NCBI GenBank assembly: GCA_946534105.1
Contig: CAMNCG010000006.1
Location: 1-43,736, forward strand
From: an uncultured Verrucomicrobiota bacterium
Lineage (GTDB): Bacteria; Verrucomicrobiota; Kiritimatiellia; RFP12; UBA3636
Reading direction: 5' to 3'
Length of the DNA: 43,736 bases
This document shows, one piece after another, positions 14,242 through 18,842 of the stretch (positions within the stretch are counted from its first letter, which is position 1; each line of letters begins with the position of its first letter). Position numbers and translations under genes: made by a program. Below the pieces are notes generated by a model. That model worked only from the letters and a program-made list of their open reading frames with translations. It had not been told where the DNA came from and made no database searches.

Positions 14242-16134
14242 TCAGGGGGCGGAATGATAGCGCGTTTCGTACATCGTTTCGGCGACGGCGCGGGCGGCTT
14301 CGGCGAGTTTCGGGTACGGCCGGTCGCAGACGTCCACGAACCCGATCTGGTAGTTCTCGCCGTCGCCGCGCCCGACGAGCGGCTGGTCGCGGTACTGGAA
14401 CCAGTGCGACCCGACGAACAGCGGGTGGCGCAGCGCGCCCTCCACGACGCGGCGATAGCTTCTGCCCCGTTCGCACTGGTCCCCGACGGGGCAGAGTCCT
14501 GGCGAGAACATCCCGCGGTGCATCGTCCCGAAGTGGAATTCGCTGTGCAGGACCGGCTTGTCGAACGCGGGGGCGGCGTATTCGCCCTCGCCGAACACCG
14601 CGACGCTGCTTACGTAGGAATTGACCGAAATCACGTCGCACCACTTCGCGGCGGCCTGCCAGAGGGCGGTGGAGTTGCGCAGTCCCTTGAACCGGCAGCC
14701 GAGGTAGAGCTTTCCGGGCGCGGCGGCGGCGAGCGCCTCCTTGCAGGCTTTGAAATACGGCTCGAAGTACGCGCTGTCGGAGGGGAAGGAAAGCTCGTTG
14801 TCGATGAAAAACCCGATGCACATCGGATCCGCCGCCGCGTGCGCGAGCGCCGAGCCCTCCGCCGCGAACGCGGCGGCCACGGCGTCGCGCATCTTGCCGG
14901 TGAACGTTTCGTCGAGCGTGTCGTAGAAGCCGGAGGAAAGATACGGCAACCCGGAGGGCTTCGAGACGGCGACGATCGCGTAGGGCTTGCGCGAGAGCTT
15001 CGTGAGGTCGCCGTCGCTCCAGTTGCCGATTGTGTTGATCCCCCATGAATCGAGCCGGCGCAGGACGAAGTCGAAGTAGTCCGCCCGGAAGTTCTCCTTT
15101 CCGAACTTTTCACGCAGGTTCCATGTCGGAAACGCCATGGAGGCCTGCGCCCGGCTTTCGTACCACGAGGGGTGAAGCCGGCCGTCCGGCGCGTCGCTGT
15201 CGGTTTTCACCACGTTGATGCCGAGCGAGTAGAACAGGTGCCCGGAAGGCGTCACGAGCCACCACTTGCCGTCGACCTTCTCCGTGCGGAAGTTCCCCGT
15301 CGCCTCCAGCTGCGGCCCCGCGGCCCAGCCGCCGTATTCGTCCCACGACGACGGCGGCGCCTTTAGGGCGGCATTCTCGGCCGCGAGGTCGGCGCGCAGT
15401 TCGTCGTAGGACGAGACCTTGTCCTTCCACCGGCCGTGCGCGAACTGGCCGAACCTGTCGACGAACGGGAGATAGCCGCCGGCGGCGACGCCGCGCGACC
15501 AGTCGGGCGCCCCGACGAGCCGCACGTTCGAGACGCGGAAATGGAGGAGGTTGGAAAACTGCCCCTCGTAGGGCCAGACCACGAGAAACGCGACGTTCGT
15601 GATCGCGGCGGTGTCGAGCGTCCTCACGCCCTTTGCACCGCTTGGAAAGGAGTAGATCTCCTTGTGCGGGAGCTGCAGCTTCAGCGTCGCCCTTTCCCCC
15701 GGGTCGAGGGCGATGCCGGCGTAGGCGTCGCCGGATGCGTCCTTGATCTGGAGGCAGAGGCGCTGCTGGTGGCCGGAGAGGTTCTCGACGTCGGCGGCGA
15801 GATAGCGCCCTGCCGAAAGGTCGAACGTCGCCTTCCCCGGCGGCGGCAGGAGCCGGAAGCCGGAGGAATACTCGGCGCTCGAACTCCGAAGCACGACGGA
15901 GCCGCCGGACTCGAACGACAGCCGTCCTCCGTAGACCGCCTCCGCCCGGCCTTTCGCGAGCGAAAGCGCATCGTCCGCGCCGGTTCCGAAAGCCGCCTGC
16001 GGCAACAGCGCCGCGGCGAGGAGAATCGCCGCAACGGCCAGTGGGGAGGCGGTCTCCAGACCGCCGCCGGGCTTCGCGGCGAACGGGAGTTCGCCGCCCC
16101 CCTCCGAGGCGCAAGCCAGTGGCGAGGCGGTCAT
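14242..16134 (-). CDS. GH50-like (beta-agarase-type) glycoside hydrolase with interrupted signal peptide
   Basis: This 630-residue paralogue of the GH at 10593 has a beta-sandwich-like domain (about 60-215) and a clan GH-A barrel (about 260-620). Both catalytic acids are present: E447 in FFIDNEL and E532 in SEFHFG. The start ATG at 16134 overlaps the stop of the beta-helix gene (TAATG), which supports it. TASPLA occurs at residues 2-7 and again at 28-33. Removing the 26 residues between leaves a canonical signal peptide, MTASPLAVAAILLAAALL followed by PQAAFG. The extra codons come from a structured 78-bp insertion (16037-16132). Whether the lengthened N-region still exports the enzyme is uncertain. 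Confidence 0.82.
   Translation of the reverse strand: MTASPLACASEGGGELPFAAKPGGGLETASPLAVAAILLAAALLPQAAFGTGADDALSLAKGRAEAVYGGRLSFESGGSVVLRSSSAEYSSGFRLLPPPGKATFDLSAGRYLAADVENLSGHQQRLCLQIKDASGDAYAGIALDPGERATLKLQLPHKEIYSFPSGAKGVRTLDTAAITNVAFLVVWPYEGQFSNLLHFRVSNVRLVGAPDWSRGVAAGGYLPFVDRFGQFAHGRWKDKVSSYDELRADLAAENAALKAPPSSWDEYGGWAAGPQLEATGNFRTEKVDGKWWLVTPSGHLFYSLGINVVKTDSDAPDGRLHPSWYESRAQASMAFPTWNLREKFGKENFRADYFDFVLRRLDSWGINTIGNWSDGDLTKLSRKPYAIVAVSKPSGLPYLSSGFYDTLDETFTGKMRDAVAAAFAAEGSALAHAAADPMCIGFFIDNELSFPSDSAYFEPYFKACKEALAAAAPGKLYLGCRFKGLRNSTALWQAAAKWCDVISVNSYVSSVAVFGEGEYAAPAFDKPVLHSEFHFGTMHRGMFSPGLCPVGDQCERGRSYRRVVEGALRHPLFVGSHWFQYRDQPLVGRGDGENYQIGFVDVCDRPYPKLAEAARAVAETMYETRYHSAP
16037..16132. 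repeat. In-frame structured insertion with flanking 18-bp direct repeats
   Basis: Two copies of an 18-mer, GCCAGTGGGGAGGCGGTC (16037-16054) and GCCAGTGGCGAGGCGGTC (16115-16132), differ at one base and are 78 bp apart. Between them lie a palindrome GGCGGTCT/AGACCGCC (16049-16066, 2-nt loop) and a hairpin GCGGCGAAC/GTTCGCCGC (16076-16097, 4-nt loop). The extra 78 bp keep the reading frame of the GH gene. It resembles the palindromic elements known to insert in-frame in other bacteria, but I see no second copy in this window. Confidence 0.7.
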
Positions 16135-18842
16135 TACCGGAGGATGAACACCGTCGCGGGCAAGTTCTGGCACTCGAAGCAGCCGACGTCGATCCTGTCG
16201 TACATGACGCGCGGATTGCCGGCAAGGTCGAAGGCCGGCAAAAGCGCGAGACCGGAGAGCGTGCCGCCGTTGAACGCGGTGCCGGATGACCGGATGCGGA
16301 AATCACCGCCGGCGAAGTCCTTGAAAAGGGAGAACGCCGTCGCGTCGTCGATGTTGTTCACGTAGGTGCCATGCTCCGCGTCCATCTTGACGGAGGTGTA
16401 TTTCTCCTTGCCGGTTTCGTAGTTCCCGACGACGATGTTGTTGCGGAGGCGGCCATACCAGGTCGTGCAGTGGACGCCGGCTGAATCGTCCTTCAAGGAA
16501 CCTTCCACGGTGTTGGCTACGACGGTGTTGTTTTCGATCTGCGTGTTGTTGTTGCTGCCGCCGAAGCGAATGCCAGCCGCGCCGTCCTTTGCCTCGTCAC
16601 CGCTGGTAATGTAGGTGTTGTAGGCGATCAGGCAGTTGGACACCCGTGCGTTTTGCGCACCATAAGTGATGAACACGGCGCCGCCGGCAAGCCCCTGGTT
16701 GGAGGATGTGCCGACTACGACGTTGTTGGAGATAACGCAGTGGGTGAGCGTGGCCGCGCCGGCGATCGCAACGCCGCCGCCGGCTCCGTTGCTGCCGTCG
16801 GCTACGGCGATGCCGCCCCGGATCACGCAGTTGGAGACGACGCCGGTCACGAGCCGCAGATTGCCGCCGTTCTCGTTCCTGACGCGCCCGTCCTCGATGG
16901 TGATGTTCTCGATGCGCCCGGCCGCATTGTTCATTTCAAGGGTGCGGTGGTAGTATGAGTTCGTCGTCACTGAGGTGTTGCGGACGATGACTGCCTCCGG
17001 CGTGTCGCCGAGACCGCGCAGCGTGAGCGCCTTGTTGAAGGAAATCTGGTCTGTCGTCTCGTAGATGCCCTCGCCAATCAGCAGCGTGTAGCCGTCGAGC
17101 GCCTCGGAGACGGCCGTCTTCAGCGAGGAATATCCTGTTGCGGCGCTGTCGTAGGGGAACGCCTGTCCGGCCGTGTTGCCGGCAGTCACGTAAACCGTGG
17201 AGGACGCCACGCGCACGTATCCATCGTAAACCATCGTGGCCGTCTCGCCATCCTCGCATTCGCTGTCCGCCGTGATTGTGACGGTATAGACGCCGGGGTT
17301 GGCGTAGGCGTGGGAAATCGTCGATTCCGAGGTCGATTCGGTCGCGGAACCGTCGCCGAAGTTATAGGTGAACGTGACCGTATCGGGATCGGGGGAGTTC
17401 TCGACGACATGCGAGAACGTGACGGTGGCCGGGGCGAAAACCTGGCTGTAGGTCGCGCCTTCGATGCGCACGGTCATGTCGGGCTTCTGGTATTCGTAGC
17501 AGCCGATATCGACATCGCCGCTGGCGCGCGGATTGCCGGCGAGGTCCGTTGCGGAGGCAGACGCGCCGCGTGGGTCGGAGATGCCCGCATCGACGAGTGC
17601 GCCGCCCGGAGCAGGGGAGTAATCGCCATTTGCGTAATCCGCAAAGACGGAATCGACGATAAGAGCGAGCGACGTGAATGCGTTCGTGGCAAAGCGCCCA
17701 TTGTCCTCTGAAAGGGCGCAATTCAGGAACTCCGCCGTGGATGAATTCGGCATGTTGCCATCCCATTCGTCGACGGTTCCGTTCTTCGTGTTGCCGAACA
17801 CTATGGTGTTGAAGATGTGTTGCGTGGCGCTCCATGCCCAGACGCCGTAAGGCTCGTTGTCAACGATGGTGCAGTTGTAGAGGTATGATGTCCCGCCGAG
17901 CAGGACGCCGCCGCATTCGCTGCCTTCGACGAGGCAGTCCTCAACGCGCGCCGAAGAGCTGTAAACGCAAAGGCTGCCGCCGTTGTAGGCGGTATGGACG
18001 CCGCCAATGAGATGGCAGCGAGACATCTTCGCCGAGCTGTCCATATAGACGTTGGCGCCTTTTTTGTCGCCGGAGGTCGCCGTATTCGTGCCGCCGGAAA
18101 TCACGCAGTCTTCCATCGTGCCGGAACCATTCATGCGCACGTTGCCGCCATCATTCACCGAAGTGCCGCCGGAAATCTGGCACTTCGCCATCGTTCCGTT
18201 GTATTGGAAGACATTGCCGCCGACGTTGTCGCAGATGCCGCCGGTGATTGTGCAGTCGCGGACGGTGCCGGCGTCAAGATAGACGTTGCCGCCGCGCTTG
18301 GTGGCGTGGCCGCCGGAAATGGCGCAATCGACGACGAGTGACGAGCCGTTGACGTAGAGGTTGCCGCCCTCGGTGTTGGCGGAGCCGTTCTTCGCCGTGC
18401 CGTCGCGGATGACGCAGTTCGTCACCGTGCCGCCGGACATCTCGATGGCGCCGCCCTTGTCGGCCTTGTAGGTGCCTTCGCCGACAACCGTCACCTTCTC
18501 TACCCATGACCCCGCCGCCATGCGGAGCGTGCGGTAGGTGCCGGCGGAGCGGATCACGACTTCGTCGCGCGTTTCGCCGGTGCCGACGAGCCTGGCCGCG
18601 AGATTCGGCCCCCACTGCGTCGTCGTCTCGTAGTCGCCCGGAGCGACGAAAATCGTGTCTTCGGCCGTGGCGCAGGCGACCGCCTGGTCGATTGTTGCGA
18701 ACGGCGTTTCGGCGGAGGATCCGTCGTTGCCGTCGTTGCCGGTCGTGGAAACGTAGTAGTCGGCGGCGCGGGCCGCGCCGGCCGCGGCGAACGCCGCGAA
18801 GGCCGCTGCGGCGCAGGACGCCGCGGGGTGTCGAGTCTTCAT
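16134..18842 (-). CDS. Secreted right-handed beta-helix protein with central PKD domain
   Basis: This 902-residue protein starts with a signal peptide (about 1-27, ending ARAAD) and then DUF1565-like YYVSTTGNDGNDGSSAETPF. A first beta-helix (about 60-420) has coils marked by Cys at 143, 173, 197, 221, 246, 276 and 303, each in a CxIxGG-like turn. A PKD domain follows (about 465-545, NFGDGSA and HAYANPGVYTVTITA), then a second beta-helix. A LAGNPR...D(I/V)GC(Y/F)E cassette (choice-of-anchor Q type) closes both halves, near 434-451 and at the C-terminus. It probably acts at the cell surface in polysaccharide binding or cleavage; no lyase active site is recognised. It is less GC-rich than its neighbours. 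It leads the six-gene cluster. Confidence 0.85.
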   Translation of the reverse strand: MKTRHPAASCAAAAFAAFAAAGAARAADYYVSTTGNDGNDGSSAETPFATIDQAVACATAEDTIFVAPGDYETTTQWGPNLAARLVGTGETRDEVVIRSAGTYRTLRMAAGSWVEKVTVVGEGTYKADKGGAIEMSGGTVTNCVIRDGTAKNGSANTEGGNLYVNGSSLVVDCAISGGHATKRGGNVYLDAGTVRDCTITGGICDNVGGNVFQYNGTMAKCQISGGTSVNDGGNVRMNGSGTMEDCVISGGTNTATSGDKKGANVYMDSSAKMSRCHLIGGVHTAYNGGSLCVYSSSARVEDCLVEGSECGGVLLGGTSYLYNCTIVDNEPYGVWAWSATQHIFNTIVFGNTKNGTVDEWDGNMPNSSTAEFLNCALSEDNGRFATNAFTSLALIVDSVFADYANGDYSPAPGGALVDAGISDPRGASASATDLAGNPRASGDVDIGCYEYQKPDMTVRIEGATYSQVFAPATVTFSHVVENSPDPDTVTFTYNFGDGSATESTSESTISHAYANPGVYTVTITADSECEDGETATMVYDGYVRVASSTVYVTAGNTAGQAFPYDSAATGYSSLKTAVSEALDGYTLLIGEGIYETTDQISFNKALTLRGLGDTPEAVIVRNTSVTTNSYYHRTLEMNNAAGRIENITIEDGRVRNENGGNLRLVTGVVSNCVIRGGIAVADGSNGAGGGVAIAGAATLTHCVISNNVVVGTSSNQGLAGGAVFITYGAQNARVSNCLIAYNTYITSGDEAKDGAAGIRFGGSNNNTQIENNTVVANTVEGSLKDDSAGVHCTTWYGRLRNNIVVGNYETGKEKYTSVKMDAEHGTYVNNIDDATAFSLFKDFAGGDFRIRSSGTAFNGGTLSGLALLPAFDLAGNPRVMYDRIDVGCFECQNLPATVFILR

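Follow-up and report, generated by a model that had tools for sequence, protein, structure and literature searches.

A putative REPIN cluster at the start of a beta-agarase-like gene in an uncultured Verrucomicrobiota bacterium

Among the closest described systems are the REPIN/BIME families of Pseudomonas fluorescens SBW25 and E. coli, in which tagged palindromes of 20–30 nt form inverted pairs and tandem clusters, reach high copy numbers, are specific to a lineage, and flank the gene of a RAYT, a Y1 HUH tyrosine transposase. Their tag is GTAG, for which the variants GYAG, GYRG, GTRG, GTMG, and GTGG have been reported. In SBW25, 14 of 1,067 16-mers overlap genes (PMC3116915). This extragenic habit describes the name REP, and the literature consulted makes no requirement of it (PMC3733652). 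Intragenic REPs are already known from the Rickettsia palindromic elements (RPEs) and from Opitutus terrae, where GTAG REPs occur within ORFs as monomers, dimers, and clusters that add at least 20–30 residues (Di Nocera et al., 2013, PMC3733652). Intragenic REPs of the GTAG families are most abundant in O. terrae and those of the CGTC families in R. conorii; REPs at the N-termini of ORFs are described as non-coding in many cases, although RPE-1 is expressed (PMC3733652).

The gene considered here lies on the minus strand (14242–16134) of a window of 43,736 nucleotides, the whole stretch of DNA that was analyzed, from an uncultured Verrucomicrobiota genome denoted G000. It encodes 630 residues, the first 32 of them element-derived, and its minus-strand reading is MTASPLACASEGGGELPFAAKPGGGLETASPLAVAAILLAAALLPQAAFG. 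A Pfam search of the protein returned no match; its nearest solved relatives are beta-agarases (4bq2), and the product is probably a secreted glycoside hydrolase. The upstream gene (PKD/DUF1565; 16134–18842, minus strand) ends in a TAA that overlaps the downstream ATG. Three consecutive paralogous beta-agarase-like genes occupy the minus strand between 10593 and 16134, and this row has same-order matches in G001, G003, G004, G023, and G032. A sequence-only reading of this DNA had proposed that a mobile palindromic element of 78 bp, comparable to those of Rickettsia, was inserted cleanly and in frame in an intact signal peptide; the sequence, the frame, and the TAATG overlap are as it described them on re-reading.

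The 18-bp direct repeats of that proposal (16037–16054 and 16115–16132, spacing 78) are present with one mismatch, as are its two internal hairpins, at 16048–16065 and 16078–16095. Both belong to a 96-bp stretch (16037–16132) that comprises one complete REPIN, consisting of two inverted REP hairpins, and the broken start of a second. The whole REPIN spans 16043–16100. Its left REP (16043–16065, plus strand) has an unpaired GGGGA tag (16043–16047) followed by the hairpin GGCGGTCTCCAGACCGCC (16048–16065) with a T-type stem, and a spacer at 16066–16077 (plus strand) joins it to the inverted right REP (16078–16100, minus strand), where the hairpin GGCGAACGGGAGTTCGCC (16078–16095) has an A-type stem with both arms altered and pairing preserved, and the tag occupies 16096–16100 on the minus strand. 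An inter-REPIN spacer, CCTCCGAGGCGCAA (16101–16114, plus strand), resembles the GAGGCGYNAGCC spacers that adjoin other REPIN clusters, on contig C63 in G000 and C95 in G001. The second REPIN begins at 16115 with the left arm GCCAGTGGCGAGGCGGTC and is broken mid-stem at 16132 (plus strand). Because the family consensus has GCCAGNGGGGAGGCGG as its outer arm, we take the second 18-bp repeat as the start of this truncated REPIN and reject a target-site duplication. The window thus holds a whole REPIN plus the cut first arm of another, so the 78-bp period is that of a REPIN cluster; tandem repetition is also seen in other G000 clusters. As single-stranded DNA, the 96 nt fold better than 196 of 200 shuffled sequences (z −2.15).

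Searching the genome with the unit, as the sequence-only reading had suggested, gave 51 matches to the 96-bp stretch at E ≤ 1e-3, itself included, and the core palindrome GGCGGWCTSSAGWCCGCC (two mismatches or fewer) has 100 copies in G000 vs. 4 for a reversed control pattern. The consensus REP is an unpaired 5′ tag, GGGGA, followed by GGCGGTCTCCAGACCGCC. GGGG(A/C) stands directly 5′ of the hairpin in 77–80 of 81 oriented copies and has no 3′ equivalent, the 3′ flank being variable beyond its first G. Two stem forms, which differ at the sixth pair (T-A or A-T), occur in balanced numbers (GGCGGTCT/AGACCGCC, n = 36; GGCGGACT/AGTCCGCC, n = 31), and the commonest arrangement of neighbors is a T-type copy with an inverted A-type copy after it (9 of 29 neighboring pairs). 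A conserved unpaired tag confined to the 5′ side, inverted pairs, and tandem clusters are all REP characters, and the repeat is a REP in the broad sense; it falls outside the GTAG superfamily, as its tag is GGGGA(G). A third palindrome, GGGAGCGCGGGCTTCCAGCCCGC (peptide SAGFQPA), was also seen in or near called genes (L016, position 1765; L031, positions 1570 and 2762).

More than one copy of the family was found in only three of the 162 genomes of the order searched (G000, G001, and G003), three species that share a genus, and the other 159 have at most one stray match each. Eight further members of the same genus contained zero copies. The exact 23-base pattern occurs in 25 stretches among 84,980 species genomes, a set from which the window's own records may be absent, and these are confined to three Verrucomicrobia MAGs. 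On this distribution, the family looks young and lineage-specific.

A candidate for the mover of these repeats was found in the sister species G001 (UBA6982), where contig C95 has REPINs of the family on both sides of a Y1 transposase gene whose product shows the motifs NHVH and WQRNYWD. The protein scores 33.9 bits against PF01797 (cut-off 23), its best PDB match is TnpA-REP 4er8 (E 7.5e-5), and it has the HxH motif and catalytic Tyr of a Y1 HUH enzyme. Since its score against NCBIfam NF047646 (59.9 bits) is under the curated cut-off of 80, we call it RAYT-like on its motifs and flanking REPINs, and it is likely the mover of the family. Its open frame (3–821 of L121, minus strand) is continuous at both ends with the REP peptides GGLKTAAPLA, GGLQSAV, and GGLETTSPMA. 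No RAYT of the same family turned up in G000, and G003 yielded no close copy; these two MAGs are fragmented, although the gene may truly be missing. Other Y1 transposase genes of G000 were rejected as movers, as no REP of the family occurs closer to them than about 1.5 kb: one on C203, and a ~360-aa gene whose two copies share ~98% identity but not their surroundings (C3:2020-2208 and C48:2135-2323; L064 and L065), the C3 protein having no match in an NCBIfam search. Contig C217 of G003 carries another RAYT, with which a different REP family is associated, the second seen here (TGTGGCGACGACG...CGTCGTCGC). On its first 2,000 positions (L123, G003:C217:1-2000), this RAYT and the second REP family share an open frame with a glycyl-radical-enzyme gene, which carries a further copy of the second REP; the far side lies past the contig end.

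This candidate bears on the comparison with Rickettsia. A strict RPE would insert itself in frame without a REP transposase, and the present repeats are likewise palindromic, dispersed, and in frame in unrelated genes (PMC10969869, PMC3733652). We nevertheless consider a strict RPE improbable, as the tag is GGGGA rather than the CGTC of the RPE class, and in the sister species this repeat lies on both sides of a RAYT gene. The comparison holds insofar as both belong to a broader REP-like class; in mechanism, REPIN/RAYT systems appear to be a nearer match than the Rickettsia elements themselves.

Alignment of orthologue N-termini revealed what the element displaced. Four orthologues (G001, G004, G032, and G039) have no insert and carry their own short leader 3′ of the upstream stop. 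In G001, G032, and G039, that stop is followed by a short gap, an ATG, and a charged n-region (the three begin MAKSSRQR..., MIAAQSRR..., and MKTMKIH...), and the orthologue of G004 probably starts at a TTG without a charged n-region. In G000 and G003, element sequence alone fills the interval between the upstream stop and the hydrophobic core, with neither the native start codon nor its n-region left. As the insert-free orthologues have leaders of their own, three of them with charged ATG-initiated n-regions, the aligned sequences indicate that the element has replaced the native start and n-region; the four empty orthologues diverge around the junction, so that exact insertion points and any target sequence are unreadable. 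The proposal of a mobile palindromic element therefore survives in part: the element is dispersed, in frame in many genes, and missing from four orthologues, but it is not a clean insertion in an intact signal peptide, since everything from the stop to the core is element-derived. For the same reason, removing 26 residues would not restore a textbook signal peptide, as the remaining MTASPLA is itself from the element and has no positive n-region. A conserved insert in all orthologues, with no copies elsewhere, would have made it an old part of the gene, and both halves of that expectation fail. A further reading, prompted by the 18-bp direct repeats at spacing 78, is that old gene sequence was duplicated locally as a 78-bp tandem with no mobile element involved. 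The genome-wide recurrence of the unit and the orthologues that have none leave this practically no probability and already refute it.

The G003 gene is a mosaic. Over the whole gene, dS between G003 and G001 is 0.107, and between G003 and G000 it is 0.694 outside the first 60 codons. The first 31 codons of G003 and G000 have zero synonymous and two other differing sites, and the next 28 codons have one synonymous difference. The G000-like tract of G003 (~250 bp, about −30 to +215) is ~98% identical to G000, and past it G003 matches G001 at 98–100%. A near-identical tract of this length inside a gene otherwise of the sister-species type suggests that the insert allele probably spread between species by recent short-tract recombination. 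The same data speak to an assembly artefact, namely a repeat-mediated chimera in a MAG, which is conceivable in that G000 and G003 are both fragmented, with several contigs ending in REPs, and REPs may break contigs. However, G003 (CAMOSH) is a separate assembly with the same junction and its own substitutions near the edge, and the tract extends ~100 bp into unique sequence, so we regard a chimera as highly improbable.

Insertion within genes is common in this family. Genes were called with a home-made codon-usage caller trained on orthology-supported genes, and are thus approximate; the sample comprised stretches around part of the family's copies and held 84 hairpins, at least one of them a chance match. 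Called genes contain 24 of the 49 sampled clusters (one chance match removed), so the family is not mostly extragenic. As 80% of the sampled DNA is coding, REPs avoid genes nonetheless (binomial p 1e-6), an avoidance far weaker than in P. fluorescens. No stop codon interrupts the hairpin in any of its six frames, and the commonest REP peptide, GGLETA/GGLQTA, is small and weakly charged; the frame that encodes it is used in 16 of the 24 intragenic clusters (p 0.0009 vs. one third, with clusters that share one gene not being independent). Three hits of a looser scan (C86:11066, C86:13140, and C6:5192) were discarded as chance matches.

Inserts are carried by IspH, a gyrase/topoisomerase IV A subunit, a protein kinase, and an FAD protein, among others. 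Pfam domains lend independent support to coding: they extend across the insert of IspH, and in the gyrase/topoisomerase subunit, the kinase, the FAD protein, and further proteins they match the host-derived parts. Compared with structures in the PDB, IspH is ~40 residues longer than Aquifex IspH at the REP position, with both flanks aligned and 67 vs. 25 residues separating two conserved blocks; the alignment of the FAD protein breaks at the insert and was set aside. The G000 kinase gene has a single in-frame REP, a net 39 bp, that is absent from G001, where the flanks align well. In the gene at C42:7499-10054, a family REP in G000 occupies the position at which the orthologues in G001 and G003 (L070 and L075) have an unrelated tandem repeat (PDAQALYPDAQAL), and the alignment marks this position as an insertion-tolerant spot.

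At the junction ATG of the agarase-like gene (16132–16134, minus strand), the G is the final base of the truncated REP and the A is also the final base of the upstream TAA. No in-frame ATG, GTG, or TTG was found between this ATG and codon 44, which makes it the sole standard in-frame start ahead of that codon, and a start at codon 44 would lose the signal sequence. Barring use of a rare start, export therefore depends on the junction ATG. What is left of the host's own signal sequence, its hydrophobic core and its end (VAAILLAAALLPQAAF...), lies at 15993–16036 (minus strand). The element-encoded leader has 32 residues and a net charge of −2; assessed from charge and hydrophobicity alone, the negative n-region could impair export. 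The gene body is under constraint between G000 and G003 (dN 0.095, dS 0.58, dN/dS about 0.16).

The cluster might instead be an intercistronic RNA stem-loop, its frame incidental, with translation of the enzyme beginning at an internal or non-standard codon and its export perhaps lost. The negative charge would agree with this, as would the position of the element exactly between two overlapping genes and the frequent mis-annotation of REPs near ORF 5′ ends as coding (PMC3733652). The lack of a standard in-frame start up to codon 44, where the signal sequence is already lost, argues against it, as do the many copies deep within genes, beyond the help of an alternative start, and overall we find an RNA role rather unlikely.

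We instead consider it likely that a tandem REPIN cluster of a young, RAYT-moved family landed at the start of this gene and made a new ATG, and that the resulting allele recombined between species. The RAYT would act in trans on the REP family, binding the tagged single-stranded hairpin, cutting it, and rejoining it at new sites; with a hairpin open in six frames and a small, weakly charged peptide, insertions of fitting length would be tolerated inside genes. Here a REPIN cluster would have landed at the junction of two adjacent same-strand genes, and the original start codon would have been lost together with its charged n-region, which in relatives take up about 30 bp. The upstream TAA and the truncated REP would together have created the new ATG, which would read through the element into the surviving hydrophobic core, and a short homologous-recombination tract would then have moved the allele between two species. 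We infer insertion near the start plus a ~30-bp deletion, in this order of steps, as the simplest history; RAYT-driven movement, translation from the new ATG, and retained export are likewise presumed. A stronger version, in which a functional secreted enzyme now relies on the REPIN for its translation start and the n-region of its signal peptide, short-tract recombination then moved this allele between species, and REPINs regularly supply new protein segments in this genus instead of being extragenic parasites, is tentative, and we lean against it.

The significance of the locus lies in extending protein-coding palindromes to an uncultured Verrucomicrobiota genus and tying them to a candidate transposase. 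Species with and without an insert at the same genes offer a direct test of tolerance to in-frame mobile inserts, and the signal-peptide case poses the question of whether a negatively charged, element-encoded n-region is compatible with export. All the features listed above for the REPIN/BIME systems of SBW25 and E. coli are shared, the flanked RAYT here being that of the sister species; the differences are a GGGGA(G) tag in place of GTAG and gene overlap in about half of the sampled clusters, far from the SBW25 proportion. The Rickettsia RPE families have in common the palindromic structure and in-frame position in unrelated genes, and N-terminal examples are known there; by its features, the present family is set apart in having no CGTC tag, a GC-rich sequence, a candidate transposase, and a shorter REP unit. 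The O. terrae REPs, likened here by description, belong to the same phylum and are also intragenic, with a degenerate GTGG tag being common; the present repeat differs in its GGGGA tag and in replacing an enzyme's start codon and signal-peptide n-region at this locus. To judge from the papers found, the details that are new within this known kind of intragenic repeat are the family itself, the RAYT associated with it, its restricted range, and a signal-peptide start taken over by the element.
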